NCBI GenBank assembly: GCA_005799525.1
Contig: SYGN01000200.1
Coordinates: forward strand, 1-35,875
Reading direction: 5' to 3'
DNA: 35,875 bases
Source of the DNA: Opitutaceae bacterium
Lineage (GTDB): Bacteria > Verrucomicrobiota > Verrucomicrobiia > Opitutales > Opitutaceae
Position numbers and translations under genes: made by a program. The number at the start of each line of letters is the position of its first letter. Positions within the stretch are counted from its first letter, which is position 1. The notes under the pieces were generated by a model, which did no database searches, was not told where the DNA came from, and worked only from the letters and a program-made list of their open reading frames with translations. Below, in pieces: positions 1 through 35,875 of this stretch.

Positions 1-360
1 ACGATCAAGGTCGCCTGCCAACAGGTGTGCCCAGTCGAAGCCATCGAATTTGGCAATATTGACGATCCGACCAGCAAGGTTTCCCGGGCGAAGGCCTTGG
101 AGCAGGACTATTCGCTGCTCGGTTATCTCAATATTCGCCCCCGCACCACGTATCTCGGCAAGCTCCGCAATCCGAATCCGAAGATGCCCGATTACCAAGC
201 GCTGCCGCTCAGTCGCGTCGAATATAACAATAAGAATCACCCTCCCTCCGATCACGGTCACGGTGGGCATGGCCACGACAGCCACGCGCCCGCGGCTCCG
301 AAGACGGAGAAAAAACTCAGCGTGATCGACGCCGGGAAAACGTTCGGAGGACTTAGCTAA
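1..360 (+). CDS. actB: ActB, C-terminal fragment: iron-sulfur subunit of alternative complex III
   Basis: The reading frame is open from the first base of the window, so only the last 119 residues are present. In alternative complex III (ACIII), ActB is the large periplasm-facing subunit that combines a molybdopterin-oxidoreductase-like domain without cofactor and a ferredoxin-like domain with Fe-S clusters. The fragment starts inside the last cluster-binding motif (CQQVCP, residues 6-11 of the fragment). It continues with the typical tail containing [15 protein letters not shown]. The last part is His-rich: eight His in about 26 residues (positions 231-288). The stop codon overlaps the actC start by one base (TAATG), which implies translational coupling. 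The assignment rests on the tail motif and the following actCDEF order. Confidence 0.9.
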
Positions 361-1790
361 TGGCCCCCGCCAACCACGCCGACACTGCGGCCCCCGCGAT
401 CTTGCAGGAGGTCAAACCTGCGTTGCTCCCCCGTGCGATCCTCATTTCCAATAACCGGAGCTTTTCTTGGATTACGGAAAAAATCTGCGGTATCATCGAA
501 GGTAAAACGCCCACGTGGTGGTGGGTCTGCTTCGCCCTCGCGTGCTTCGTCGCGTCCTTCACCGTCGCGGGAATCGCTTACCTGATCGCCACCGGTGTCG
601 GCGTTTGGGGCCACGCCAATCCCGTCAATTGGGCTTGGGATATCGTCAACTTCGTCTTCTGGATCGGTATCGGCCACGCGGGTACGTTAATTTCCGCCAT
701 CTTGTGCCTGCTGCGGCAGAAATGGCGCACCTCGATCAATCGCGCCGCCGAGGCCATGACGATCTTCGCCGTGGTTTGCGCCGCGATCTTCCCGGTCTTT
801 CACGTCGGCCGCGTTTGGTATGCGTGGTATCTGTTCCCCGTGCCGAATTCGAACGCCATCTGGCAGAACTTCCGCTCACCCCTTGAGTGGGATGTGTTCG
901 CTGTCTCGACCTACGGCACGGTCTCGGTGTTGTTCTGGTATGTCGGCCTGTTGCCCGACCTCGCCGTGCTTCGCGACCGGTTCTACTCCTCCGGCAACAA
1001 GGTCCGCTCGGCGCTTTACGGATTCTTCGCTCTCGGCTGGCGCGGTTCGAACCGCCACTGGAGCAACTACGAGATGGCTTATTTGATCCTCGCCGGCATC
1101 TCAACTCCTCTCGTTCTTTCGGTGCATACGATCGTCTCGTTCGACTTCGCGGTCTCGCTGCTCCCCGGCTGGCACACGACCATCTTCCCGCCGTATTTCG
1201 TCGCGGGCGCTATTTTCTCCGGTTTCGGGATGGTGCTCACGCTGATGCTTCCGCTGCGCGCCGTTTACAAGTTGGAGGATCTCATCACGCAGTATCACAT
1301 CGACTGCATGTGCAAGATCACCTTGGCGACCGGCACGATCGTTGGCTACGCCTACGCGATGGAGTTCTTTATCGCGTGGTACAGCGCGAATCCGTACGAG
1401 GGCTTCGCCTTTATCAACCGTGCCTTCGGCCACTACGCTTGGGCCTACTGGATCATGATTTCGTGCAATGTCATCACGCCGCAGTTCTTCTGGTTCAAGG
1501 CCGTGCGCCATAACACGTCCTTCGTCTGGATTCTCTCAATCTTCGTCAACGTCGGCATGTGGTTCGAGCGCTTCGTGATCATCGTGACCTCCCTTGCCCG
1601 TGACTTCCTGCCGTCGAGCTGGGGCTTCTATTCTCCGAGCATCGTGGAGATCTTCACCTTTTTCGGCACCTTCGGCGTCTTCTCGGTGCTGTTCCTCCTC
1701 TTTATTCGCTTCCTCCCCATCATGCCGATGGCAGAGCTCAAGGCGGTCACGCCGCAGGCCGATGTGCATGGCGGCGGCGCTCACCACTAA
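360..1790 (+). CDS. actC: ActC, NrfD/PsrC-like membrane subunit of alternative complex III
   Basis: This 476-residue integral membrane protein belongs to the NrfD/polysulfide reductase membrane-subunit family. In ACIII, ActC sits in the inner membrane below ActA/ActB and is thought to carry the quinol site and part of a putative proton path. The sequence has about ten hydrophobic segments. A charged cytoplasmic N-terminus precedes them, with the family-typical stretch of Asn, Arg and Trp residues near residues 30-50. The segment around residues 240-330 contains the family's HTIVSFDFA and [11 protein letters not shown] signatures. The C-terminus ends in a short His/Gly tail. The start overlaps the actB stop by one base, and actD follows after 11 bases. 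Gene order and family signature make this assignment secure. Confidence 0.93.
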
Positions 1791-1801
1791 GTTTCACGCC
1801 C

Positions 1802-2335
1802 ATGGCTGCACCTTCCTACGGCTTGATTGCCACTTTCGATACCACTCCTGATCTCCATCATGCGGCGGAAAAAGTGCGCGATGCCGGTTACCGCAACTGG
1901 GACTGCATTACGCCGTTCCCCGTACATGGACTCGACAAGGCGATGGGCCTCCAACGTTCCATCGTTCCGCGCATTTCGCTCGTGGGCGGTATCATCGGTT
2001 TTTGTACCGGTACGTCGATGATCTGGTGGACTGGTGCGGTGGACTATCAGCTCATCGTCGGCGGCAAACCTCTTTTCAGCCCCATGTTTGCTTTTCCCGT
2101 GAGCTATGAGCTCACAATTCTCTTCACCGCGTTTGCGACCATCGGCGGCATGTTGTTCCTCAACGGCCTGCCCATGCACTACCACGCGGTGCTGAAATAC
2201 GAGCATATCCGCCGCGGCATGGATGATCAGTTTTTTATCGTCATTGAGACGCGCGATCCGCGCTTCAATCTCGCCAACACCAAGGCCCTGCTTGAAAAAG
2301 CCGGCGGGAAAAACATCTCCGAACTCGAGGCCTGA
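1802..2335 (+). CDS. actD: ActD, DUF3341 membrane subunit of alternative complex III
   Basis: This 177-residue protein has an N-terminal soluble alpha/beta part (residues 1-55), with a YGLIATFDTTPDL start typical of DUF3341. Two transmembrane segments follow at roughly residues 58-78 and 98-122. The C-terminal soluble tail contains FFIVIETRDPRF. In ACIII, ActD is an accessory two-helix subunit on the cytoplasmic side with no known cofactor, and none is visible here. It lies between actC and actE with gaps of 11 and 3 bases. No Shine-Dalgarno sequence precedes its ATG, so translation probably depends on coupling. Confidence 0.92.
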   Translation: MAAPSYGLIATFDTTPDLHHAAEKVRDAGYRNWDCITPFPVHGLDKAMGLQRSIVPRISLVGGIIGFCTGTSMIWWTGAVDYQLIVGGKPLFSPMFAFPVSYELTILFTAFATIGGMLFLNGLPMHYHAVLKYEHIRRGMDDQFFIVIETRDPRFNLANTKALLEKAGGKNISELEA

Positions 2336-2338
2336 GCC

Positions 2339-2989
2339 ATGCGCAACGTCTACCTCGTCACCGCATTCTTCGGCGTGCTCACGGTGTCCATTTTTGGATT
2401 CCGGGGCACGAAGTTTACTTCGCCCCCGATCGAAGTATTTCCGGAATGGGCCTTTCCGGGTATGAAAATTCAGCCGAAACCTCGTGCGCAGGGTGCCTCG
2501 GACTTTTTCGCCGATGGACGAGCCGATCGTCCGCCAGTCGAGCACGCGGTCATGCGCGGGATGCTGCGGGAAGACGACCACCTCAATCGCGGTAAGGATG
2601 CAACCGGTGCCTTTGCCCGTGGATTTCCTGCCGCACTTTCAGCCCCTATTGATCTCACGTTCCTCCAACGAGGGAAGGATCGTTTCGAGATTTATTGTGC
2701 GCCCTGCCATAGCGCCGTCGGTGACGGTGCCGGCATTACGAAACAATATGGGATGGGTGCGACTCCCACCTTCCATGACGACCGGCTCCGCAAGATGCCC
2801 GAGGGTGAAATTTATAACACGATCACCGTTGGTTCGCCCAACAAGAACATGCAGTCCTACGCCGACAAACTGGCACCGGAGGATCGCTGGGCGGTCGTCG
2901 CCTACGTCCGCGCTCTGCAACGTGCGCAGCAGGGTGGCGTCGCCGACGTCACCGACGCCGCCGGTAAACAAACCCTCGGTCTCAAATGA
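2339..2989 (+). CDS. actE: ActE, monoheme cytochrome c subunit of alternative complex III
   Basis: This 216-residue cytochrome c has an N-terminal hydrophobic anchor or signal (residues 4-20) and a single heme c motif, CAPCH, at residues 120-124. A plausible Met ligand lies at residue 171 (NKNMQSY). In ACIII, ActE is the periplasmic monoheme cytochrome that passes electrons on to a downstream acceptor. There is no Cys in the signal region that would make a classical lipobox, so the N-terminal helix probably serves as the anchor. The ATG lies 3 bases after actD. The stop overlaps the actF start (ATGA). Confidence 0.92.
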   Translation: MRNVYLVTAFFGVLTVSIFGFRGTKFTSPPIEVFPEWAFPGMKIQPKPRAQGASDFFADGRADRPPVEHAVMRGMLREDDHLNRGKDATGAFARGFPAALSAPIDLTFLQRGKDRFEIYCAPCHSAVGDGAGITKQYGMGATPTFHDDRLRKMPEGEIYNTITVGSPNKNMQSYADKLAPEDRWAVVAYVRALQRAQQGGVADVTDAAGKQTLGLK

Positions 2990-4263
2990 GCAGCACGCAC
3001 GCAGCCACCGCCTCCTCGGCCCTCCCGTCTGACACCTCGACCGCCGCCGCAGCGACCAAGGCCCTCACGGTCGGTCTCGTCGGTCTTGCGGTCACCGCTC
3101 TCGGCGTGGCCGTCATGCCCGATCGGCACGGACCCGTGATGTCCTATTTGGTCGGCATCACTTTCTGTACTTCGATTCTGATCGGCATGCTCATGCTGAT
3201 TCTGATTCATCACATCGTCGACGCTTCGTGGTCGGTCGTGATTCGTCGGCAGTTTGAGCACGCCCTGACCTCGTTTAAGTGGCTCTTCGTGCTCTTTCTC
3301 CCACTATTGGTCCTCGCTTGGGTTAAACCCGGATTTGTCTGGCCGTGGATGGACCTCGCCCACGAGCTGCATGGTCATGGGACGGTGGGGACGGATATTC
3401 TCTATCAAAAGAAGTCCGGCTTTCTGAATTTGCACATGTTCACGGGCATGACGCTCGCCTTCTTTGCCAGCTGGGTCTGGCTCTCCGCGCGGCTCCGCCA
3501 GGCCTCGTTTACGCAAGACTCCGACGGTGACGTTAAGTGGACTTTCATGAATCGAAAGACGGCGGCTATTGGTCTGCCCATCGGTGCTCTGACCCTCAGT
3601 TTTGCGGCGATCTACTGGGTGAAGTCCCTCGAATACCACTGGTTCTCGACGATGTATGGCGTCTGGTTTTTCGCGAATTGCATCCGTGGTGCGTTGGCCG
3701 TCGGCGTGATCATCATGATCTGGCTCTGGGATCGTGGGGATTTTAAGGGCGTGCTGAATACGAATCATTCATACTCGATCGGTATGCTCGCTTTCGCCTT
3801 CACGGTGTTCTGGGCCTACATCACGTTCTCGCAATATTTCCTGATCTGGAATGCCAACGTCCCCGAGGAAACCTTTTGGTATAACCTCCGTGAAGTGAAC
3901 CACGATGGCTCCACGAACCAATGGTGGTATGTTGGACTCGTGCTGCTTTTCGGCCACTTTTTCGTCCCGTTCCTCTATCTGCTCTCTTACAAACACAAGG
4001 TCGTCCATTCGAAGATCAAACCCATCATGTGGTGGATATTGGCCGTCATCCTCGTCGACATGTGCTACAATATTTTACCGGCCCTGAAGGATGGGCACGG
4101 TGATTCATTGCCCTTCCTCTCGCTCAATCTTCTTTGGGTCCTGACGTCCGTCGTCGGTATCGGTGGTGTGTGCGTGTGGTCCTACTTGAAGAGTTTCCCG
4201 ACGACCAAGCTCATCCCCATCCGCGATCCGCGCATCACCGAGAGCCTCACGTACCATGAGTGA
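2986..4263 (+). CDS. actF: ActF, NrfD-like membrane subunit of alternative complex III
   Basis: This 425-residue polytopic membrane protein is the second, shorter NrfD-like subunit of ACIII and a distant paralogue of ActC. About ten hydrophobic helices are visible. An Ala/Ser/Thr-rich N-terminus leads into the first helix at about residue 25. Segments such as the FNHWFST-type YHWFSTMYGVWFF (near residue 215) and SQYFLIWNANVPEE (near residue 285) are characteristic of ActF. The start overlaps the actE stop in an ATGA junction. The C-terminus overlaps the next gene by 8 bases. Together with ActC it forms the membrane core that is proposed to couple quinol oxidation to proton movement. Confidence 0.92.
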   Translation: MSSTHAATASSALPSDTSTAAAATKALTVGLVGLAVTALGVAVMPDRHGPVMSYLVGITFCTSILIGMLMLILIHHIVDASWSVVIRRQFEHALTSFKWLFVLFLPLLVLAWVKPGFVWPWMDLAHELHGHGTVGTDILYQKKSGFLNLHMFTGMTLAFFASWVWLSARLRQASFTQDSDGDVKWTFMNRKTAAIGLPIGALTLSFAAIYWVKSLEYHWFSTMYGVWFFANCIRGALAVGVIIMIWLWDRGDFKGVLNTNHSYSIGMLAFAFTVFWAYITFSQYFLIWNANVPEETFWYNLREVNHDGSTNQWWYVGLVLLFGHFFVPFLYLLSYKHKVVHSKIKPIMWWILAVILVDMCYNILPALKDGHGDSLPFLSLNLLWVLTSVVGIGGVCVWSYLKSFPTTKLIPIRDPRITESLTYHE

Positions 4264-4588
4264 TTCATCCGCCCATTCTCCGCGGCCCGTGGCACTGATC
4301 ACCACGCTGTTTATCTTCGCCGTTGTGGCCATTGGCTGGGTTGTCGTCTCCCGCCTCTATGAACCGACCTCCACGTCGCCACAAAACGCTGTCGCCGAAA
4401 ATCTCCCCAAGGAATTGGCTTGGAAGGCAACTCCGGCGACGCGCAAGCAAGCCCTCGGCGAGCTTCGCGAGAAGCACGCCCAGCAGTCGACGTCTTATGC
4501 GTGGATCGACAAGAACGCGGGCGTCGTGCAACTCCCGATTGAACGCGCGATGCAACTGACGGCCGCCCACTACGGGTCTAAGAAGTAA
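4256..4588 (+). CDS. Small single-pass membrane protein of the ACIII operon, function unknown
   Basis: This 110-residue protein has one transmembrane helix (about residues 13-33) and a C-terminal domain of about 75 residues expected in the periplasm. It has no Cys, so no heme or disulfide. The C-terminal part contains a distinctive stretch, YAWIDKNAGVVQLPIERAM (residues 80-98), that looks like a conserved core. The ATG lies inside the last codons of actF (8-base overlap), so the gene is almost certainly co-translated with the ACIII genes. The CcoN-like gene follows 13 bases later. It could be an assembly factor or a linking subunit between ACIII and the following module. I do not recognise a characterised family. 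Confidence 0.85.
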   Translation: MSDSSAHSPRPVALITTLFIFAVVAIGWVVVSRLYEPTSTSPQNAVAENLPKELAWKATPATRKQALGELREKHAQQSTSYAWIDKNAGVVQLPIERAMQLTAAHYGSKK

Positions 4589-4601
4589 TTTTATTTTCTC
4601 G

Positions 4602-6023
4602 ATGTCTTCGACCTCCACCCACGCTGAAGTCACCGCCGTCGATACGGCCGGGCGCTGGCCAGTGCTCTTCTTGCTCGCCTCCGGGCTCGGGTGGCTCGTG
4701 ATCAGCGGCATCTGCGCTCTCATTGCATCCATCCAGCTGCATAGCCCGACTTTTATGTCGGCCTGTGAGTGGTTCACTCACGGCCGTGTCAGTGCCCTCG
4801 CCGAGACGTCTTTTGTCTATGGTTGGGCCGCCAATGCCGGACTCGGGATTGCACTCTGGGTCCTTGGGCGCCTCGGCGGCTCGACGCTGCGCGCTCAAAA
4901 CTGGTCGATGATCGGCACGCTTTTCTGGAATCTGGGTATTACGCTCGGTCTCGGCGGTATCGCCACGGGCGACGCCACGTCGTTCGCCCTCTTGGAATTG
5001 CCCCGTTACGTGCAGCCTCTGCTCGTCGTTGCGTATATCGCCATCGGAATTTCCGGCATCCTCGCTTGGTCGGGCCGCCGCACCGAAGGCACCTATGCTT
5101 CGCATTGGTATGCCGTCGCCGCGTTGTTTCTCTTCCCTTGGCTGCTGATCGCTGCCCAGACGATGCTGCTGTGGAGTCCGGTCGGTGGTGTGCTCCAGCC
5201 GATTATCGATGGTTGGTATGTGCAATCGGTGTTTTCCCTGTGGCTCGCCCCGCTGGCCTTGGCCGGCGCCTATTATGTGGTACCCAAGATTACCGGACAG
5301 GCGCTTCCGAGCTACGAATTTGCGCCGCTCGCCTTTTGGACGCTCCTGTTTGTCGGAACGATGACCGGAGGCCGGCATTTGATCGGCGGTCCTGTCCCGG
5401 CTTGGATTCCCACGCTGGCCAACGCCGCGTGCTGGATGGTTCTTTTCCATTATATCGTGGTGACGCTTAATCTGCGGGGCGCTCTGACCGGCGGTGGCAC
5501 TTCCCTCGCGTTTATTTCCTTCGGCCTGCTCGCTTACCTCGCCGGTGCTGTGCTTGATGCAGTGACGTCTTTCCGTGGCGTGGCCTTGGTCACGCAGTTC
5601 ACGTATTTCACGACGGCTCAACAGCAACTCGCGCTCTATGGCGGAATCTCGATGCTGCTCTTCGGCTCGATTTATTTCGCGCTGCCCCGTTTGACCGGTC
5701 GTCCTTGGAATTCGGGCGCGTTCGTCCGCAGCCATAAGGTGCTCGCGATGGTCGGCATTTTCCTCCTCGTGGGTTCCCTCGCGGTCGCCGGCTTGATCCA
5801 GGGCACTGAGTTGAGCAACGCCAAGACCACGTTGGGTGAAATCGCTGGTCGCACTCGTCCTTGGTTGCTGGCGGTTTCAGTCGCTCAGGTGCTTTTGTTG
5901 ATCGGCAATATCCTTATGCTGGTGAATTTCCTGCGCAGCGTTTGCGTTCTGTGTTGCTCCGGCGCGGCTTCCGAGGCGGGGTCCTTCCGGCAGCCAACGA
6001 CGATGGAGGTTCATGCGTCATGA
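4602..6023 (+). CDS. CcoN-like membrane protein lacking nearly all heme and copper ligands
   Basis: This 473-residue protein has about twelve helices and aligns along its length with CcoN, the catalytic subunit of cbb3 oxidase. Examples are HGRVSALAETSF for FGRLRPLHTNAV, GWYVQSVFSLW...YYVVPK for WWYGHNAVGF...YYFVPK, and GSIYFALPRLTGR for GALYHMIPKVFGR. Five of the six recognised ligand histidines are gone. The first heme b His is Ala68, the helix VI CuB His is Gln208, and the CuB His-His pair is Arg258-His259. The HVH pair for heme b3 and heme b lies in Gln340-342. The helix VII Tyr and the conserved Glu of CcoN are also absent. The frame is intact, and both the fold and the helix-end motifs are kept, so this is not simple decay. 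It probably anchors the two cytochromes encoded next to it. It cannot reduce oxygen as CcoN does. The alignment is from memory of CcoN sequences. Confidence 0.85.
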   Translation: MSSTSTHAEVTAVDTAGRWPVLFLLASGLGWLVISGICALIASIQLHSPTFMSACEWFTHGRVSALAETSFVYGWAANAGLGIALWVLGRLGGSTLRAQNWSMIGTLFWNLGITLGLGGIATGDATSFALLELPRYVQPLLVVAYIAIGISGILAWSGRRTEGTYASHWYAVAALFLFPWLLIAAQTMLLWSPVGGVLQPIIDGWYVQSVFSLWLAPLALAGAYYVVPKITGQALPSYEFAPLAFWTLLFVGTMTGGRHLIGGPVPAWIPTLANAACWMVLFHYIVVTLNLRGALTGGGTSLAFISFGLLAYLAGAVLDAVTSFRGVALVTQFTYFTTAQQQLALYGGISMLLFGSIYFALPRLTGRPWNSGAFVRSHKVLAMVGIFLLVGSLAVAGLIQGTELSNAKTTLGEIAGRTRPWLLAVSVAQVLLLIGNILMLVNFLRSVCVLCCSGAASEAGSFRQPTTMEVHAS

Positions 6024-6676
6024 TGAAAAACGGCTTTTTCTTCTTCATCGGCCTCCTCGCCGCGTTTCTCTTGGGCTGGAGCAGTATTCCCCTTTTAGCC
6101 CACAAGCAATTGGGTGCGCTCACCCCATTCTACGATGACGGCGAAAGTTCATCCTTCCCGACGCGCCCTCCCGGCGTCGCGGCCCGAGGCCAACTCGTCT
6201 ATGCGGATTTGGGCTGTGTGGCCTGCCACACCCAGCAAGTCCGGCGGCCCGATTTCGGTTCCGACAAGGCTCGTGGTTGGGGTGATCGCCAGAGCGTTGC
6301 CCGCGACTATATATTTCAAGGTCGCCCTCAGCTCGGTGAATCGCGCATTGGGCCCGATCTTGCGAACTGGGGTGTACGTCAAACCCCGCTCGATGCGGCG
6401 GCCATTGCCCAGTTTCTTTACAGCGGCGTGGTGACCGGTGCCAAGGCCGTGAGCCATCCGCCGTTTCCTTTTCTGTTCGACGATCGTCCGATTGACGGAG
6501 AGGTCGCGGCCGACGCACTCGTCGGCCTAGCCGAGAAAACGCCCCGCCGGCAGGTTGTGCCGACGGAGCGTGCGCGGACACTGATTGCCTATCTGCAGAG
6601 TTTGAACAACGCCTACGAATATCCCGAAGCACGTCATGTGGAACCCGCAGCTGCCAAGGAGGGCGCACCCAAATGA
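6020..6676 (+). CDS. CcoO-like membrane-anchored monoheme cytochrome c without axial Met
   Basis: This 218-residue protein has one N-terminal transmembrane helix (residues 5-25) and a CcoO-like periplasmic domain. The heme c motif is CVACH at residues 66-70, followed by TQQVRRP, matching CcoO's CHSQMIRP. RIGPDLANWG matches RTGPDLARVG. The CcoO axial Met lies in a motif like KMPSYPWL. Here the same place reads SHPPFPFL, with His146 at the Met position, and the protein has no Met after residue 2. The heme is therefore probably bis-His or otherwise ligated. The true start is 6020, where ATG overlaps the CcoN-like stop (ATGA). The open frame upstream of it (5861-6019) overlaps the preceding gene and is not used. 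The 3' end overlaps the next gene by 4 bases. Confidence 0.88.
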   Translation: MMKNGFFFFIGLLAAFLLGWSSIPLLAHKQLGALTPFYDDGESSSFPTRPPGVAARGQLVYADLGCVACHTQQVRRPDFGSDKARGWGDRQSVARDYIFQGRPQLGESRIGPDLANWGVRQTPLDAAAIAQFLYSGVVTGAKAVSHPPFPFLFDDRPIDGEVAADALVGLAEKTPRRQVVPTERARTLIAYLQSLNNAYEYPEARHVEPAAAKEGAPK

Positions 6677-7338
6677 GCACGCCGTTGCATCAAGATCCAC
6701 GCCTCGATCAAGCCGCCTCCACCGACGAGAGCTTGCTTGCGGCTCACGATAAGCTCCTCGGCAAGCAGCCGGATGAGAAGGGACGATACAAACTTCCTCC
6801 GCTCCATCTCCTCTTTCTCTTCAGTGGTTTGATCTTCTTTGCGGGCACCTATCTGAATCGTTACTCTGGCATGTTTGATCCCCGCGTTTATAACGAAAAC
6901 ACGCTCCCACCGAGCGGTGAAACGGTTGTCGCAAAACTTGATCCGCTCGTGCTGGGGAAGAAGCAATACAATGCGATTTGCATCACGTGCCACCAAGCTA
7001 ATGGCCTGGGTTTGCCGGGCGCGTTCCCTCCGTTGGCGGCCTCAGAGTGGGTGACCGGTTCGGATGACCGTCTGATCCGCCTCGTGGTTTACGGCATGAC
7101 CGGCCCCATGACTGTCAAGGGTGTGCTCTACAGCGCCGCCCCGATGCCAACGATCGGCAAGGTTGCGAATTCGCAATACAACCTCAGTGACGACAAGGTG
7201 GCCGCTGTCTTGACCTATATCCGTCACGAATGGGGTAATACTGGTGCGCCTATCACGACCGACCAGGTCGCCGCCGTGCGCAGCAAAGAGGGTGATCGTA
7301 AGCCCTACGTCGAGGCGGAGCTGCTCAAGCTCAACTAA
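6673..7338 (+). CDS. Membrane-anchored monoheme cytochrome c (third subunit of the cco-like module)
   Basis: This 221-residue protein has a cytoplasmic N-terminus of about 42 residues, one transmembrane helix (residues 43-61) and a periplasmic class I cytochrome c domain. The heme motif is CITCH (residues 103-107), with the expected GLGLPGAFPPLA loop after it and a likely axial Met158 in APMPTIG. Unlike CcoP, which carries two hemes, it has only one. It takes the CcoP position in the operon and could pass electrons between the CcoO-like cytochrome and a soluble carrier or an oxidase encoded elsewhere. It starts in an ATGA overlap with the CcoO-like gene and is the last gene before a terminator. 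Confidence 0.88.
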   Translation: MSTPLHQDPRLDQAASTDESLLAAHDKLLGKQPDEKGRYKLPPLHLLFLFSGLIFFAGTYLNRYSGMFDPRVYNENTLPPSGETVVAKLDPLVLGKKQYNAICITCHQANGLGLPGAFPPLAASEWVTGSDDRLIRLVVYGMTGPMTVKGVLYSAAPMPTIGKVANSQYNLSDDKVAAVLTYIRHEWGNTGAPITTDQVAAVRSKEGDRKPYVEAELLKLN

Positions 7339-7362
7339 TTCTTGCTCGCACTCGTCTGCTGG

Positions 7363-7389
7363 AAGGCCGCGATGAATTCGCGGCCTTTT
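7363..7389 (+). terminator. Intrinsic terminator of the respiratory operon
   Basis: A perfect 9-bp stem (AAGGCCGCG, 7363-7371, with CGCGGCCTT, 7379-7387) encloses a 7-base loop and runs into four T (7386-7389). It lies 25 bases after the last cytochrome gene. It also lies upstream of the 3' end of the converging hldD gene, for which the T-run is weaker. Confidence 0.75.
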
Positions 7390-7437
7390 CGTGTCGGAGT
7401 CAGCGGCCGCGCTCACTCCCCATCGGGGCTGAGCAGG

Positions 7438-10426: not shown

Positions 10427-11260
10427 TTATTTCAACTGCAGGGTTTCAACCTGGATGACGATTTCCTTGGAGTCGGGAGCGTTTTTGGCCGCACCGAAAA
10501 CGACCACGGTATGGTTGGCGTAATTCTCGATTTGGTCGGTCTGGAGGAGCTTGGAGACGTCCAGGTAAGCGTAACGTTTGCCGGCATCGTCGGTGAGTGC
10601 CCAATCGTAAGGACGGCGCGGGGTGAACGGACGACGCGTGGAGACAAACTTGCCTGCGAATTGGCGCGGGAGTGTGCTCGCGCCGCCGTCGCCGAGATTG
10701 ACGGTGGGGGCGGCGTGTCCGGGCGTTGCCACGCCATAAACACCGGGCGAAACGGGCGGGGCTGACATCGGCGCACCGACCGGTGGAGTGGGCGCCGCCG
10801 AGGCGCTGGCCGGCGTGCTCGCGAACGAGGGGGTCGAGTCCGCTGGGCCGCCGATGTAGATATAGGCGGTGAGTTTTCGCTCGAGGCGGATCTGCGTCCA
10901 TTTCCCGTGCAGCCCTGTGAGTGTGCTTTGGTCGTCTTTCTGAGCAACAGTCAGCACCCCGCCATCGAGTTTGGGCGCCAAGTAGAGGTTGCACCCTACT
11001 TTCACGTCGAGGCCCTTCGTGAGGTCTTTGTTCTGCACATAGGCCTCGAAGGGGCCAGGCAGCTCGATGGCGAGCCAACCTGCGGGTGTCCCGGCGACCG
11101 CATCGGTCGTTGCGGCGGGCTCCGTGCCCGCCTTCAGGAACGTGAAGGCAGGGGAGGACTGGTCCGGCTGGGTGTGGACGGCCGTGGTCTTAGTCAGTGG
11201 CGTGGCGAACGCTGCGGCAGTCGCGATAGAGACGGCGAGCAGGAGGAGTTTAGTCTTCAT
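10427..11260 (-). CDS. Secreted protein with SH3-like N-terminal part, function unknown
   Basis: This 277-residue protein has a clear signal peptide (residues 1-19, [19 protein letters not shown]). Residues 25-75 read like a bacterial SH3 domain ([14 protein letters not shown], then [16 protein letters not shown]). Residues about 145-185 are a Pro/Ala/Ser-rich linker. The C-terminal 75 residues look like a compact beta domain ([21 protein letters not shown]...). It has a single Cys and no catalytic motif. The start overlaps the end of the pseudouridine synthase gene by 11 bases, so the two are co-transcribed. An envelope role is an inference from the signal peptide and the SH3-like domain. 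Confidence 0.82.
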
Positions 11261-28176: not shown

Positions 28177-30633
28177 ATGCCCTCCACCGAGTCCCGTCAT
28201 TTAGCGTCAAACCCATGGCGCATTTTTTGCGTCGGTGCGATGGCTTGGGTCGCCGGTGCGGTGGGGCCGATCGGGGCCGCTGCGGCTGAGCCCGACGTGG
28301 CCGTGAACTTTCAGGAAAAAATCAAACCACTCTTGGTGAAGTATTGCTACGATTGCCATGCCGACGGCGTGAACAAAGGGCAGGTGGCTTTTGACGGGTT
28401 GAAGACGGCGGGGGATATGCTTTCTCGGCATGATATGTGGTTTGCGGCGTTGAAGAGCGTGCGCGCCGGTATCATGCCGCCCCTGGAGGAGGGCGCGGGG
28501 CGTCCGTCGGCGGAGGAGATCGCGGCGCTCACGCAATGGATCAAGTTTGAGGCCTTGGATCTTAACGCTACTGCGTCCGATCCCGGGAAGGTCACCGTGC
28601 GCCGACTCAATCGCGCGGAATATCGAAATACCATCAATGACCTGATGGGGATTGAGTTTAACAGCGAGGTCGAGTTTCCGCCCGACGACGCGGGCGATGG
28701 ATTCGACAATATGGGCGAGGTGCTGACGATTTCACCGCTGTTATTGGAAAAATACTTACAGGCCGCGGAGGTGATCGTGGAGCGCGCGGTACCGAAGGTC
28801 TCACGCGTGATGCCGAACCAGACGGCCACGGGGCGCGAGTTTCGCGGATCAGAGGGTGGGGGCACGGGTGAACGCATGCTCGTGACCAAGCCGGCCAAGG
28901 TGGCGCACTCGTTTCGCGTAGCGCAAACTGAGACCTACGGATTGGAAGCGGAATTGGAGATTCGCGGTTCATTCGATTTTGATCCAGGACAGGGTACGCT
29001 GATCGCCTGGGTCGACGGGGAGGAGTGGTTTCGTGAGGACGTCGCTTGGCAGGAAAAAAAGATTTTGAGCCGAGTGCGTGAAGTGCAGTGGGACGCCGGG
29101 GCCCATGCCGTGCAATTTGAGATCATCCCGCGCGAACGTGAAGCGAGCGCGTCGGTGCCAGCGGCGCGCACCCAGTCGGTGCCGGGAGCGACCAGTGTGA
29201 TTGTGCGCGTCGCGTCGGTGCAGGTGAAAGGACCGCTCAAGCCGGAGCACTGGACCACTCCAGAGGGCTATGCGCGATTTTTCCCACGGGGGCCGGCGTC
29301 CACGGAGACGGCCGCGCGGGCCGCCTATGCCCGCGAGCTGCTCGGAGATTTCGCCGCGCGTGCTTATCGGCGGCCAGTGGATTCGGCCCATGTGGCGCGC
29401 CTCGTAGGCATCGCCAGCGACACCTATAGCCAGCCTGGGCATACCTTCGAAAAAGGCATCGGCCGGGCGATCATGGCGATCTTAGCCTCGCCGCGATTTT
29501 TGTTTCGAATTGAATCACCGGTCGAGGGGACTGCAGCCTATGCGCATGCGGACGAGTATGCGCTCGCGTCGCGGCTGTCGTATTTTTTGTGGTCTACGAT
29601 GCCGGATGCAGAGCTGACGGGCTTGGCGGCGAAGGGTCAGCTTCGGCGGGAGCTACCCGCCCAAGTGACGCGCATGATGGCCGATCGGAAAGTACAGGCG
29701 TTCGTGAAAAACTTTACGGGGCAGTGGTTGCAGGTGCGGGATGTCGAATCGGTGCCGATCAACGCGCGCGCCGTGCTGGGAGTAAGCGCGACGCGTAACC
29801 GTGACGGCAGCCGCGTCGAGTTTGATGGAGCGACCCGGCGGGCGATGCGGAGCGAAACGGAGATGACCTTTTCGCACGTCTTGTCCGAGGATCGCAGCGC
29901 CCTCGAGCTGATCGACGGCGATTATACTTTTCTGAACGAGCGCCTCGCGACCCACTATGGTGTGCCGGATGTCACGGGGGACCGACTACGGCTCGTGAAA
30001 TTGCCGGCGGGCAGCCCGCGTGGTGGCATTCTCACCCACGGGGCGGTGCTGACCGTTACGTCTAATCCGACGCGTACATCCCCGGTGAAGCGTGGACTGT
30101 TTGTGCTCGAAAACATCCTGGGCACGCCACCGCCGCCGGCGCCGCCGGATGTGCCAGCGCTGGAGGATGCCGCCAAGGGCTTCGGTGGCCGTGAACCGAA
30201 GCTGAGTGAGATGCTGGCGGTGCACCGTGAGAACAAGCTGTGCAATTCGTGCCATGAGCGTATGGATCCGCTGGGGCTCGCCTTCGAGAATTTCACGGCG
30301 CTGGGCACGTGGCGCGAGACCGAGGCAGGCCAAACAATCGAGGTGGCCGGCCGCCTCGTAACGGGCGAGCGATTTGCCAGTGTGAGCGAGCTCAAGCGCA
30401 TTCTCACCCACGAGCGGCGCTTCGACTACTACCGTTGTCTCACGGAAAAACTTCTGACCTACGCCCTAGGCCGAGGGCTGACGTATCGCGATACTGATAC
30501 GGTGGACCGGATCGTGGACGCGCTGGAGCGCGAAGGTGGGCGGATGTCCGTCCTCGTGAACGGAGTCATCAACTCGGTGCCGTTTCAGACGTTGCGGAGA
30601 GGGAATTCCGCGCTAACCTCACTTTCTTTCTAG
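28177..30633 (+). CDS. Secreted diheme DUF1592-family cytochrome protein
   Basis: This 818-residue exported protein is of a type common in Planctomycetes and Verrucomicrobia. It has a signal peptide (about residues 13-37), then an N-terminal cytochrome domain with CYDCH (57-61). Next come DUF1587-like (RRLNRAEYRNTINDLMGI), DUF1592, DUF1588 (RGGILTHGAVLTVTSNPTRTSPVKRG) and DUF1585 segments. A second heme motif, CNSCH (689-693), lies in ENKLCNSCHERMDPLGLAFE. It is followed 29 bases later by its usual partner, a DUF1552 protein. The role is unknown. A periplasmic redox system acting on carbohydrate or organic substrates has been guessed for such pairs, but nothing here proves it. Confidence 0.9.
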   Translation: MPSTESRHLASNPWRIFCVGAMAWVAGAVGPIGAAAAEPDVAVNFQEKIKPLLVKYCYDCHADGVNKGQVAFDGLKTAGDMLSRHDMWFAALKSVRAGIMPPLEEGAGRPSAEEIAALTQWIKFEALDLNATASDPGKVTVRRLNRAEYRNTINDLMGIEFNSEVEFPPDDAGDGFDNMGEVLTISPLLLEKYLQAAEVIVERAVPKVSRVMPNQTATGREFRGSEGGGTGERMLVTKPAKVAHSFRVAQTETYGLEAELEIRGSFDFDPGQGTLIAWVDGEEWFREDVAWQEKKILSRVREVQWDAGAHAVQFEIIPREREASASVPAARTQSVPGATSVIVRVASVQVKGPLKPEHWTTPEGYARFFPRGPASTETAARAAYARELLGDFAARAYRRPVDSAHVARLVGIASDTYSQPGHTFEKGIGRAIMAILASPRFLFRIESPVEGTAAYAHADEYALASRLSYFLWSTMPDAELTGLAAKGQLRRELPAQVTRMMADRKVQAFVKNFTGQWLQVRDVESVPINARAVLGVSATRNRDGSRVEFDGATRRAMRSETEMTFSHVLSEDRSALELIDGDYTFLNERLATHYGVPDVTGDRLRLVKLPAGSPRGGILTHGAVLTVTSNPTRTSPVKRGLFVLENILGTPPPPAPPDVPALEDAAKGFGGREPKLSEMLAVHRENKLCNSCHERMDPLGLAFENFTALGTWRETEAGQTIEVAGRLVTGERFASVSELKRILTHERRFDYYRCLTEKLLTYALGRGLTYRDTDTVDRIVDALEREGGRMSVLVNGVINSVPFQTLRRGNSALTSLSF

Positions 30634-30662
30634 TCGTCACCATTCCCCGCGAATCCCTCCCC

Positions 30663-32084
30663 ATGAAAAACCAGCCTGCTGTTGCCCCGTCCGATCTCGC
30701 GAACCAACGCCACTTCGCGCTGAGTCGCCGCCAGTTTCTCCGTGGAGTTGGCGTATCGATGGCGCTGCCGCTCTTTGAGTCGACGCTCCCGGGCCGCCTG
30801 CGAGCCGCCTCGGCCCCGCTCGCGAAAGGCGCGACGGGTTTGGCGACGACCGCGAGTGGTGCGCCGCTGCGCATGGCGTTTGTCTATATCCCCAACGGTG
30901 TTCATCAGGACAATTGGTGGCCGACGGACGAGGGCCGGGCCTTTCAGCTCGGCAAGACGATGGAGCCGCTCGCTCCGCTCAAGTCGTCGCTCCAAGTTCT
31001 GGGCGGCCTGAATCACCAAAACGCGAAGGCCGGCAACGACGGCGCCGGTGACCATGCCCGGGCGAATGCGACGTTTCTGACCGGCGCGCGGGCGCGCAAA
31101 ACGGACAGCGCCGACATTCAGGTAGGGATCTCTGTCGACCAAGTGGCCGCGCAACAGATCGGCCACCTGACGCGATTTTCGTCGTTGGAGTTGTCCTGTG
31201 ACAGCGTCCGCAAATCCGGTCGCTGCGATTCCGGTTATTCCTGCGCTTACCAATACAATCTTTCATGGCGCTCGCCTTCTGTGCCGATGACGCCGGAGCC
31301 CAACCCGCGGTTGGTTTTTGAGCGGTTGTTTGGCAGTGGTGCAGGCGCGGAGCGGCAGGCTAATTTCCGCCAGCGCCAAGCCACGCAAAAATCTCTGCTC
31401 GATTTCGTCATGCACGACGCGAAGTCATTGCAGACGCAGCTGGGTCAATCCGACCGTGCAAAGCTCGACGAGTATCTGACGGGAGTGCGTGAGATCGAGC
31501 AGCGCATTCAGCGGACGGAGAGCTTTGGCGCGTTGCCGGATCCACGCGTGGACGCGCCGGCGGGTATTCCTGGCGATTTCGGGGAGCACATGGATATCAT
31601 GTTCGATCTGCTCGCGATGGCCTTCGAAACTGATTCGACCCGCGTGGCGACCCTGCTGCTGGCTGGTGATGGTTCGAACCGATCGTATCCGCAGATCGGT
31701 ATTGCGGAGGGCCACCACTATTGTTCTCACCATCGCAATGACGCGGACCTGATGGGAAAGATCGCGCGGATCGACCGCTACTACATGGAGCATTTTGCGC
31801 GTTTCCTGAAGCGTCTGGAACAGACTAAGGATGTCGACGGTCGCTCGGTGCTGCACAATTCGATGATCGTTTACGGCTCCGGCAACGCCGACGGCAACCG
31901 TCACACGCACGACAATCTCCCCGTCATTCTCGCGGGCGGCGGGGGTGGCAGCCTGGAGTCAGGACGGCACGTTAACCTCGGCGGTCGGCCGATGAGCGAT
32001 CTTTTCCTGAGCATGACCGACCGCTTGGGGGTGCAGGGGATCGAGCGGATCGGTGACTCCAGCGGTCGGGTAACAACGGTGTGA
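30663..32084 (+). CDS. Tat-exported DUF1552 protein
   Basis: This 473-residue protein has a twin-arginine signal (SRRQFLRGVG, residues 21-30, then a moderately hydrophobic stretch). The mature part contains FVYIPNGVHQDNWWP, PLKSSLQVLGGLNHQNA and GDHARANATFLTGAR. NLPVILAGGGGGSLESGRHV near the end is typical of DUF1552, which is distantly related to sulfatase/alkaline phosphatase-like DUF1501 proteins. Tat export suggests that it folds or binds a cofactor in the cytosol. It is the constant partner of the DUF1592 cytochrome upstream and is probably in the same transcript. Confidence 0.9.
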   Translation: MKNQPAVAPSDLANQRHFALSRRQFLRGVGVSMALPLFESTLPGRLRAASAPLAKGATGLATTASGAPLRMAFVYIPNGVHQDNWWPTDEGRAFQLGKTMEPLAPLKSSLQVLGGLNHQNAKAGNDGAGDHARANATFLTGARARKTDSADIQVGISVDQVAAQQIGHLTRFSSLELSCDSVRKSGRCDSGYSCAYQYNLSWRSPSVPMTPEPNPRLVFERLFGSGAGAERQANFRQRQATQKSLLDFVMHDAKSLQTQLGQSDRAKLDEYLTGVREIEQRIQRTESFGALPDPRVDAPAGIPGDFGEHMDIMFDLLAMAFETDSTRVATLLLAGDGSNRSYPQIGIAEGHHYCSHHRNDADLMGKIARIDRYYMEHFARFLKRLEQTKDVDGRSVLHNSMIVYGSGNADGNRHTHDNLPVILAGGGGGSLESGRHVNLGGRPMSDLFLSMTDRLGVQGIERIGDSSGRVTTV

Positions 32085-32100
32085 GCGTGTCGGCAAAGGC

Positions 32101-32124
32101 GAGTCCGGCTGCACGGCCGGACTC
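32101..32124. terminator. Hairpin between convergent genes
   Basis: A perfect 9-bp stem (GAGTCCGGC/GCCGGACTC, loop TGCACG) lies in the 51-base gap between the DUF1552 gene and the converging synthase-like gene. No T-run follows on either strand, so it would be a weak or factor-assisted bidirectional terminator. Confidence 0.45.
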
Positions 32125-32135
32125 AAGCCGTACGC

Positions 32136-34586
32136 TTATGGAGTGACGGGAGGGACTGCCGGCGATTTCAGGGCGTTGCGGAGAGCGGCGCGACGAAAGG
32201 TGGTGCCAAGAAAAATCTCCTCGGGGAAGGCCACGTATCGGAGCATCTCGTTGAACGCGTCTGAGCCGCGGTGCGAGTTGAGTTGCAGCCCGGCGAGGTA
32301 TTGCAGGCGGAGGCTCCGGTCGCGATTGAGCTCGGCCCCGACGAGCCACGTTTTTAGGTCCGACGCCTGACCGGCGTAGGTGGACATGAGGTTGAGTGCG
32401 GAGCCGAGGCCGAGTGTGGCCAAGGCGTCGCGCGCGACGGCATGGTCCGGGCGATCGAGTCGCGTTTGCAGCGCGTCGAGATTGACGGTGAGCGGATCGA
32501 GCGTGCCGAGCATGACGGTGTCGTAGCCGTAGCCCTCGTCGTCGTTGCTCCAGATGGTGCCGTGGGGGAAGACGGAGAAGAAGGTGGCGATCTCGCTCTG
32601 CACGACTGCGCGATTGCTCTCGTAAAACGGCACCCACTGCGTGACGACGCCGCCCGGGTTGAGGTGGCGTCGGCAGATTTCAAAATACTCCTGCGAGTAG
32701 AGCACGGCAGCGCCTTTGACCCACGGGTGAATCGGATCGGAGGTGATGATGTCGAATTTTTCGGTCGTCGTGGCGAGATAGTGCCGGGCGTCGTCGTAGA
32801 TGACTTCGACGCGGCGGTCATGGAGCACGTCGTGGTTTTCCTTGGCGAAACGAGTGGCGACGGCGCGTGGGATCAGCGGCTCGATCTCGCAAATCACGAT
32901 GCGCTCGATCGTCGGGTGAGTGACGAACGTTCCGGCGGTCACGCCGGCGCCGCAACCCACGATGAGCACCGAGCGCGGCTGAGGATGGAGGAGGGCGGGA
33001 ATATGGCCGAGCATAAGTTGGAGCCGCATGTCCTTGAAAAGGCTGGACGCCTCGGTTTTTCCGCTGACGTGGAAGAAACGCCCGCCGGCACTCGATTCTG
33101 TGACCGCGACGGAAGCGTTGATACCCTCGCCAACAAAGAGGACATTGGCGTTGGTATCGTTGGAGTGGATTTGTCGGCCGTAAGCGATGAGTTGCCAGGG
33201 CGTGGCGGGCAGACCGGTCGCGAGCGCGAGCGCGACGACCGCGGCCGACCCAAGCGTGATCGAGCCGGAAAGATGGCGCGGCGCAAATGTGACCAGCGCT
33301 GCGATGAACGAGAGGATGAGGAGGACTTGCGCCGTGTGCTGAGTCCCGATCAAAGGAATTGAAAGCAGACTCACCGTAACGGCGCCGACAATCGCCCCGA
33401 CGGTATTCGCCGCATAAATCCGTCCCACGAGAAAGCCGGAGTCGCGGCTGGATTCGGTGGTAGCGGCCAAGGCGAGGGGAAAGCTCGCACCCCATAGACA
33501 GGCGGAGGGTAAAATGACCCACACGCAGCGAACGAGATCGAGTTGAAACTTGAGCCATGGACTGGTGGCGATCGCGGAATCGATCGGCCAAAACGGGAGG
33601 GAAGTCGCGAGAACGTGCGTGGCCCAAGCGATCCCGAGAACCTGAAGGATTTGGCAACAGCCCAAGATGAGTCGTGGGTGGGGACTGCTGCGCGCGATGA
33701 GCGCGCCCAGAGCGCTGCCGAGACCGAGACCGGAGAGAAACACCGTTAGAATAATTGAAAACGTGTAGACCGTGGCTCCGAGGAGCAACGAGAGCAGGCG
33801 AGTCCAGATCACCTCGGAGCCCAAAGCGCAGAGACCCGAGAGTGCAATCGCCGCGAGCACGCCGCGGTCGCCACCTCGCTCGACCGGGTGGAGGGCGGGG
33901 TCGGCGCGGTTGGCGTTGGATTCCGCGGAGGCGGAGCTGTGGGGAAGTTTGCGGGCGAGCACGAGGGCGAGGACGGCAATCGCGACGTTGATGCCGGCGG
34001 CACACCACGTGGCGATGGCCATGTCATGGACGCGCAAGAGATAAAAGCCGGCGACGAGGCAGCCGGCGACGGCGCCGGCGGTGTTGCCGCCGTAGAAGAA
34101 GCCAAGCCAGGAAATGCCGCGGGGAGTGGCTTCGACCCACCGCGCGATGGCGGGAAGCGTTGCCCCCATGAACAGAGTGGGGGGCAGCAGGCAGGCGGCG
34201 CACACGAGGCCGCGCAAGATGATCCCCCACAGGCCGGTGGCGGCATTTGCCAAGTATAACTGGGTGATTGCGGGCATGGCGTACAGGACGGCGAGGCCGG
34301 ACAGCGCGATGCCAAGTTCGAGCCACGCATACACGCGCAAGGGATGTAACGTGGACGAGACGAGACGTGGAAGCGCGAGGCTACCGAGGCACATGCCGCC
34401 CATGAACGTGCCCAATAACACCGCGAGCGAAACGGCGGAAGAGCCGACGACCAATTGAAGCAGTTGGAACCAGACGATTTCGTAGATGAGTGCGGCGCAG
34501 CCGCTGCCGATGAACAGCACGAGCATCAGCGGCATGAGGCGCGACGCCTCCGTCGTTGGAGTTGTTGAGTCCCCAGGTGAACTCAT
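32136..34586 (-). CDS. Polytopic membrane protein fused to a spermidine-synthase-like domain
   Basis: This 816-residue protein has a membrane part (about residues 15-480) of roughly twelve or more helices, arranged like two halves of an MFS-type transporter. A cytosolic methyltransferase-fold domain related to spermidine synthase follows (about 510-740). It shows the nucleotide-binding loop SVLIVGCGAGVTAG, then EIEPLIPRAV, the DDARHYL segment and TSDPIHPWVKGAAVLYSQEYFE. The catalytic DSxDP region of SpeE appears as TSDPIHP. The final 80 residues are helical. Members of this fused family are common in environmental bacteria and mostly uncharacterised, so true polyamine synthesis is not assured. 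No partner gene adjoins it. Confidence 0.85.
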   Translation of the reverse strand: MSSPGDSTTPTTEASRLMPLMLVLFIGSGCAALIYEIVWFQLLQLVVGSSAVSLAVLLGTFMGGMCLGSLALPRLVSSTLHPLRVYAWLELGIALSGLAVLYAMPAITQLYLANAATGLWGIILRGLVCAACLLPPTLFMGATLPAIARWVEATPRGISWLGFFYGGNTAGAVAGCLVAGFYLLRVHDMAIATWCAAGINVAIAVLALVLARKLPHSSASAESNANRADPALHPVERGGDRGVLAAIALSGLCALGSEVIWTRLLSLLLGATVYTFSIILTVFLSGLGLGSALGALIARSSPHPRLILGCCQILQVLGIAWATHVLATSLPFWPIDSAIATSPWLKFQLDLVRCVWVILPSACLWGASFPLALAATTESSRDSGFLVGRIYAANTVGAIVGAVTVSLLSIPLIGTQHTAQVLLILSFIAALVTFAPRHLSGSITLGSAAVVALALATGLPATPWQLIAYGRQIHSNDTNANVLFVGEGINASVAVTESSAGGRFFHVSGKTEASSLFKDMRLQLMLGHIPALLHPQPRSVLIVGCGAGVTAGTFVTHPTIERIVICEIEPLIPRAVATRFAKENHDVLHDRRVEVIYDDARHYLATTTEKFDIITSDPIHPWVKGAAVLYSQEYFEICRRHLNPGGVVTQWVPFYESNRAVVQSEIATFFSVFPHGTIWSNDDEGYGYDTVMLGTLDPLTVNLDALQTRLDRPDHAVARDALATLGLGSALNLMSTYAGQASDLKTWLVGAELNRDRSLRLQYLAGLQLNSHRGSDAFNEMLRYVAFPEEIFLGTTFRRAALRNALKSPAVPPVTP

Positions 34587-34861
34587 GGAGCAACGTGCAA
34601 GGCGGTGAGCGCGGATTCGTGGGGGTTGGGCATGCGAGGACGGACGCGCGGTGCGGAGCGATGTTGCGGGGTTTCCGCGACGCCACCCCAGGATATTGGT
34701 TGATCGGGATTAACCACGCAGCCGAGCAACGAGCGCAGCGGGTGATACACAGCGGGCAATTCAAGGGTGGAACCGTCACGTACCCGGACAGGCGTGCCGT
34801 CGTCGGGGAAACTCCGTTCACTCACAACGACTCCCGATAGTTTGAGATCGCGGGACCGCAT
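34583..34861 (-). CDS. Unassigned open frame of 92 residues, possibly a gene remnant
   Basis: Between the synthase-like gene and the truncated esterase lie about 436 bases without a clear gene. On the minus strand a frame runs from 34861 to 34583, overlaps the next gene by 4 bases, and is also open upstream of its ATG to about 34980. It contains a protein-like stretch (FPDDGTPVRVRDGSTLELPAVYHPL), but I recognise no family. It may be the 3' end of a gene whose 5' part is lost, or chance in a GC-rich sequence. Nothing else is visible in 34862-35022. Confidence 0.25.
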   Translation of the reverse strand: MRSRDLKLSGVVVSERSFPDDGTPVRVRDGSTLELPAVYHPLRSLLGCVVNPDQPISWGGVAETPQHRSAPRVRPRMPNPHESALTALHVAP

Positions 34862-35022
34862 CGCTCGGTCGTGCTTCTTCGTGGAGGTGTTGAAATCGAT
34901 GAGGGTGTCTACGCCGACTTTGCGTAGTGACGGGGCCGCGTCCCCGGAGGTCGGACAGAGTGAACGGTGCGCCGAGGTCGCGGGCCGGGGCTTGAACGCT
35001 GGCAGCGGCGAGTGGGCGGAGG

Positions 35023-35700
35023 CTACTGGGCTTCGTCACCGAGTGGACGTTGGTTGCTGAAGTTGGGACTGGCGGGAATGGCGAAGGTCAAAGGATCGTC
35101 GGGGTAAGCGGGGCCGAAGGAGGTGAATTCGTCGACGATGAATTTCGCGAGCGGGAGTTTTTGATCGCGGATGGCCTCAACGATGGCTTTCGAGAGTTCG
35201 TAGCTGCCATAGTTGTTGTGGTGGGTGTTATCTTGTCCGGCGAACGCTTGGCGGGAAAATTCGGGGCCGCGGGCTTCGAGGGCTGCGTAGAATAGTTTCG
35301 AGAGGGCTTTGAGATCGATGAAAGCGACCTTGAGTTGCTGTGCGGATTGGCGGGCAGCTTCAGCGTAGTCGGCGAGCGATGAGATTACTTTGCCGGCGGC
35401 GTCAAAACCGCGGCGCTCCATCGGCGAAAGAATGAGCGGGGTGCCGCCGTGGGCGCGGACCGCTTCAATGTGTTTCTTGATCTCGGCTTGATAGGTGGTG
35501 AAGGGGCCGCCGGTCTTGGCCGCGATTTGCTTTTGGTCGTTGTGGCCAAATTGCATGAGCAGCCAATCGCCGGGCTTCATCACGCTGAGGATTTTGTCGA
35601 GACGACGGCGGCCGGTGGAGTCGCGGTAGGTCTCGCCGAATTCGGCGTGGTTGGCGATCACGACCTCGGGCTTGAACCAACGCGGAAACATCTGGCCGGA
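35023..35700 (-). pseudogene. 5'-truncated SGNH/rhamnogalacturonan acetylesterase-like gene
   Basis: The frame encodes the C-terminal three quarters of a GDSL/SGNH carbohydrate esterase of the rhamnogalacturonan acetylesterase type. It reads GQMFPRWFKPEVVIANHA, then MKPGDWLLMQFGHNDQ, and ends with the catalytic Asp and His in AGQDNTHHNNYGSYELS. The N-terminal GDS motif with the Ser nucleophile and the signal peptide are missing. Esterase-like sequence starts abruptly at about 35697. The codons upstream in the same frame (to 35838) have no esterase similarity and lie antisense-free within another coding frame. It is best read as a gene cut by a rearrangement, so a working enzyme is unlikely. 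Confidence 0.7.
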
Positions 35701-35707
35701 ATGGCGC

Positions 35708-35875
35708 TTAGATAAGGCGCAAAACTTTCTTACCCAGAGGGCTGCGTCGTTCCGTATCAGGAAACTTGGCGCGCATGATTTGGCGGGAGAGGCGACGCAT
35801 ATTGGCGAGGAGTTTTTTGACGCGGCGATGCTCGGCAATGGCTTGCTCCAGCCAGTCGGCCTGATCGGCGGAGAG
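35708..35875 (-). CDS. C-terminal end of an unknown protein, possibly DUF6788-like and mobile-element-linked
   Basis: The frame is open from the window edge and ends in TAA at 35708. The 55 residues are strongly helical and basic (LSADQADWLEQAIAEHRRV, then LLANMRRLSRQIM). They resemble, from memory, the short DUF6788-type proteins often found beside transposases. It overlaps the spurious upstream part of the esterase frame and is the more convincing reading of this stretch. Its stop lies about 10 bases from where esterase homology begins, so it marks the joint that cut the esterase gene. Confidence 0.5.
   Translation of the reverse strand, partial: LSADQADWLEQAIAEHRRVKKLLANMRRLSRQIMRAKFPDTERRSPLGKKVLRLI

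Follow-up and report, generated by a model that had tools for sequence, protein, structure and literature searches.

Insertion of an IS4-family element into a GDSL/SGNH-type esterase gene at a contig end of an Opitutaceae genome

The window, meaning the whole stretch of DNA analysed here, is the entire contig C155 of 35875 bases, and its last 177 bases are the left end of an insertion sequence (IS). We find that the joint at this end, where an esterase gene fragment meets another reading frame, is an ordinary IS insertion, which is well documented because both ends of the element, the target duplication and the empty site were all found. In the reading we favor, to which we assign a probability of about 0.96, an IS4-family element of ~1.85 kb, probably of subgroup IS4 and with a transposase gene and, divergent from it, a DUF6788 gene, entered an intact esterase gene. 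Entry at codons 211–215 duplicated 11 bp of the target and left the esterase in two pieces, the 3′ part on C155 and the 5′ part, with the nucleophile block, on contig C279.

The 3′ part of the GDSL/SGNH-type esterase gene lies at 35023–35697 on the minus strand and comprises 224 codons and a stop, with the stop end at 35023. Its DNA similarity to relatives reaches 35697 and none is seen beyond; the alignment break is at 35697/35698, a correction to the first-pass annotation, which had let the esterase similarity start at about 35697. The IS starts at 35699. The match of this frame to Pfam Lipase_GDSL_2 (1.1e-10) starts only at position 26 of the 178-position profile, which means that the window lacks the start of the domain. 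The GHND and DxxH blocks are present, and a block alignment with homologues showed that the GDS nucleophile block is absent from the window piece. The second coding frame described earlier, said to stop at 35708, is a minus-strand frame that is open to the window end, with its stop codon at 35708–35710. It represents the last 55 codons and stop of an IS-borne DUF6788 gene (35708–35875, minus strand) and points towards the esterase fragment.

The esterase frame stays open from the window end to 35023 and offers a TTG at 35838, as would suit a naturally short esterase starting at the break beside a normal helical neighbor gene. We consider this reading hardly credible, given that the fragment lacks the nucleophile-serine block and that the neighbor is a mobile-element gene, which is not the neighbor in either of the two closest relatives, G003 and G008. 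Moreover, a scan of named genomes found 141 relatives of the esterase, of which 80 were kept, and each of these has a match to the query on the upstream side of the break (residue 214), beginning at residue 86 or earlier. The esterase therefore does not naturally begin there, and comparison with relatives yielded no kept homologue that does.

Both ends of the element could be located. The left 177 bases of the IS occupy 35699–35875; of the remainder, cut off by the contig end, only the right 206 bases were recovered, on C279. The left terminal inverted repeat, GAATGGCGCTTAGATAAG, at 35699–35716, recurs inverted at C279 189–206 with 18/18 bases identical, in line with the mobile-element joint proposed at first pass. 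It adjoins the left copy of an 11-bp target-site duplication, ACATCTGGCCG, at 35688–35698; the right copy, ACATCTGGCCC, lies at C279 207–217 and is identical in 10/11 bases. The mismatched base adjoins the left IS end and is G there, and C on C279, in G003 and in G008. A query with the right-hand portion of the G007 element gave a single match in the source genome, C279 1–185. A pattern made of the right IS end and the 11-bp flank from the window, with up to 3 mismatches allowed, also found one site, C279 197–217, with one mismatch; by itself this pattern proves little, because a reversed control pattern likewise gave one match at ≤3 mismatches.

On C279, the right IS end is followed by ACATCTGGCCC and then by a minus-strand coding sequence ending ...FLGNSTVCDQSKEPFKSWGQM, which resumes in the window as FPRWFKPEVV. 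The duplicated 11 bp lie within codons 211–215 of the esterase. The missing N-terminus is thus on C279, directly after the right IS end, and the 5′ end of the gene, described earlier as replaced, has instead been separated from the remainder by the element.

The closest relative, G003, carries an uninterrupted esterase and provides the empty site. Window 29536–35697 corresponds to G003 1–6162 at 98.2% identity, and C279 207–1454 to G003 6153–7396 at 90.4%, the lower identity lying mostly beyond the gene. The two matches are collinear and overlap by 10 bases, which are the exact part of the target duplication. G008 is also uninterrupted at the site, and joining the flanks without the IS gives one frame of 435 codons from ATG, equal to that in G003 and G008. 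Upstream of the esterase gene, a tRNA-Arg(tct) is found on C279, G003 and G008. The duplication, the gene and the synteny together indicate that C155 and C279 are adjacent in one chromosome, with the middle of the IS unassembled; both contigs end inside the IS because the assembler was unable to cross a multi-copy element.

These data also bear on two other ways in which the joint might have formed. The first, already raised as an alternative at first pass, is a deletion or a recombination between two IS copies, with the esterase 5′ end lost or moved elsewhere. The source genome holds at least two copies of the left end of the element (C155 and C200), so that recombination between copies would be possible, but the esterase 5′ part, which has the same target duplication, sits directly behind the right IS end. 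No deletion was seen at the joint, where G003 is collinear on both sides; on the duplication and this collinearity we reject a deletion, and we regard the reading as a whole as very unlikely. The second is an assembly or binning artefact, either a chimeric joint or a strain mixture in which the insertion is confined to part of the cells. The draft state of the genome (343 contigs, 83.75% complete, 2.17% contaminated) leaves some room for this, although a matching duplication beside both inverted IS ends is not expected from a false joint, and even a strain mixture would include cells with a true insertion. We judge an artefact improbable, if less so than a deletion, and retain a plain insertion with target duplication.

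Among eight other genomes of the same genus, six (G002, G003, G004, G006, G007 and G008) have a close esterase homologue with 70–96% identity and an open frame of 438–479 aa. The best esterase match in G001 reaches only 42%, and G005 has a 45% match plus a short 87% piece. This short piece corresponds to the C-terminus of the esterase, lies within a 277-aa frame (L057, G005:C118) and is perhaps another broken copy.

The element itself occurs elsewhere. Window 35699–35875 recurs on C200 of the source genome at 98% identity and in G007 at 97%, and in G006 shorter pieces extend past the starts of three contigs, as repeated elements that break assemblies usually do. Seven full-length copies of 1,799–1,855 bp were found, one in G007 and six in G015 (two in tandem). 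In all of them, the ends are matching inverted repeats with 11-bp duplications outside them; the duplications are exact in 6/6 G015 copies and identical in 10/11 bases in G007. The transposase was assessed on the relatives' copies, as the window piece carries no transposase sequence: in the two tested, one from G007 and one from G015, it matches Pfam DDE_Tnp_1 and NCBIfam transpos_IS4_1 (1.8e-64 and 1.5e-60; curated cut-off exceeded in both), and a DUF6788 gene lies at the left end, divergent from the transposase gene. The Y-(2)-R-(3)-E-(6)-K motif is present as YARRWQVELHFRQIK in the G007 copy and as YMQRWHIELHYRQIK in one G015 copy. Together with the inverted ends and the target duplication, the transposase in the full-length copies bears out the earlier attribution of the joint to a mobile element. 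By analogy with these copies, the interior of the window copy is presumably the same as theirs, and family membership suggests that the element would move by cut-and-paste transposition.

In G015 (L023–L027), the six full-length copies sit in a near-identical 11-bp target, GGGTCAAACCT and once GGGTCAAACTT, within dispersed AGCCAAAGGGGTCAAACCTCACCTTTCGCA-like sequence of which 4/5 loci also contain unoccupied examples; the two tandem copies have one duplication in common. On C200 of the source genome (L022), a 448-bp stretch occurs twice, at 6482–6928 and 10692–11139, with 92% identity, and one of its copies ends immediately to the left of the second IS copy.

We also considered an IS231-type insertion, for which G- and C-rich targets are a ground. 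This candidate was rejected, as the ends are without the CAT that the subgroup descriptions in PMC2266710 state for subgroup IS231. Both ends of the window copy begin GAATGGCGCTTAGATAAG, and a by-eye comparison with Table 1 of PMC2266710 found that they conform to the subgroup IS4 ends, -AATR--------WTW. The same descriptions give subgroup IS4 duplications of 10–13 bp and, for some of its members, less strict conservation of the first base of the ends as well as a pronounced insertion specificity; for the IS4 family as a whole, target duplications are about 10 bp, and that at the window insertion is 11 bp, 10/11 identical. The window element thus resembles subgroup IS4, as described there, in its ends (GAATGGCGCTTAGATA), the YREK motif and the 11-bp duplications, and differs from it in its greater length and in the divergent DUF6788 gene that separates the transposase gene from the left end. 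The seven full-length copies (1,799–1,855 bp) exceed the 1,400–1,650 bp that PMC2266710 gives as a typical, not a defining, size for the subgroup, because of the extra DUF6788 gene. Extra DNA at the position of the DUF6788 gene is described for subgroup IS231 in the same account, dated 2008, according to which it had not then been seen in other subgroups, though never systematically searched for. Judged by its ends, the YREK motif and the 11-bp duplications, the element probably belongs to subgroup IS4 of the IS4 family.

We then compared the conserved blocks of the split esterase across 24 of the 25 loci from the homologue search, the window's own being omitted. The first-pass annotation held that the GDS nucleophile had been lost; it is indeed absent from the window piece, but the block persists on C279, where it reads GNS, compared with GDS in 23/23 homologues covering the block (L057 is without block coverage). 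The GDS block that an active GDSL/SGNH hydrolase would carry in the same chain was thus not found. With the nucleophile block on the other contig, and as GNS, the esterase gene is split and its product probably inactive, as far as the split gene sequence indicates. The residue preceding the block II glycine is F in the source genome only, among the aligned loci; this change and GNS are only suggestive as marks of decay. The dN/dS of the whole esterase against G003 is 0.34 (5′ part 0.46, 3′ part 0.23) and falls between the values for two neighboring genes (0.41 and 0.11), which lends no support to a general decay of the esterase. The insertion may be recent. As a separate observation, the synonymous divergence of the esterase (window 35023–35697 plus C279 217–849) from G003 is ~2.5 times that of two neighboring genes (0.073 vs 0.027 and 0.030).

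The uninterrupted G003 relative matches in sequence the GDSL/SGNH esterases 2o14, YxiM of B. subtilis (2.1e-19), and 1deo, rhamnogalacturonan acetylesterase (3.8e-07), and keeps all of the GDS, GHND and DxxH blocks. Compared with 2o14 and 1deo, the gene of the source genome is interrupted by the IS and its block on C279 is GNS.

The insertion accounts for the contig end at 35875 and indicates C155 and C279 as neighboring contigs. The esterase fragment at 35023–35697 should accordingly not be annotated as a short esterase.

The frame facing the esterase fragment had been likened to small proteins linked to transposases, and it proved to be the DUF6788 gene of the IS4-family element. The C200 copy scores 40.6 bits against DUF6788 (PF20586), above the Pfam gathering cut-off of 27.2, while the 55-aa window piece alone scores 14.8 bits, below it; an NCBIfam scan of the DUF6788 protein returned nothing. 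In 2/6 G015 copies, a stop or frame shift interrupts the DUF6788 match, so not every copy there is intact. A DUF6788 match at E ≤0.001 occurs in 72 of the 387 genomes of the phylum, 67 of them above the Pfam cut-off, compared with 1/14 control genomes, where it falls below the cut-off.

At 30 DUF6788 loci from the best-scoring genomes (L067–L096), the longest ORF per locus was chosen mechanically. Sixteen of these 30 ORFs match an NCBIfam transposase (≤1e-5), namely ISKra4 (5), IS66 (4), IS4 (3), IS1634 (2) and IS1380 (2), several of the 16 being below curated cut-offs and the two IS1380 matches very weak; other proteins account for 4/30, and 10/30 had no match. Under looser scanning, 57 ORFs taken from these loci gave IS1634 four times and ISNCY once. 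That DUF6788 genes adjoin transposases from four or more IS families is, on these sequence matches, a lead only, and a full-text search on the word DUF6788 found no paper naming it in the collection searched. We tentatively suggest, as the less probable case, that DUF6788 could be an accessory protein common to unrelated IS families, giving them the same aid (for example, transposition regulation or target choice), and that the window element could be an IS4-subgroup member that acquired it. The only point of wider interest here is that DUF6788 genes occur next to transposases from several IS families.
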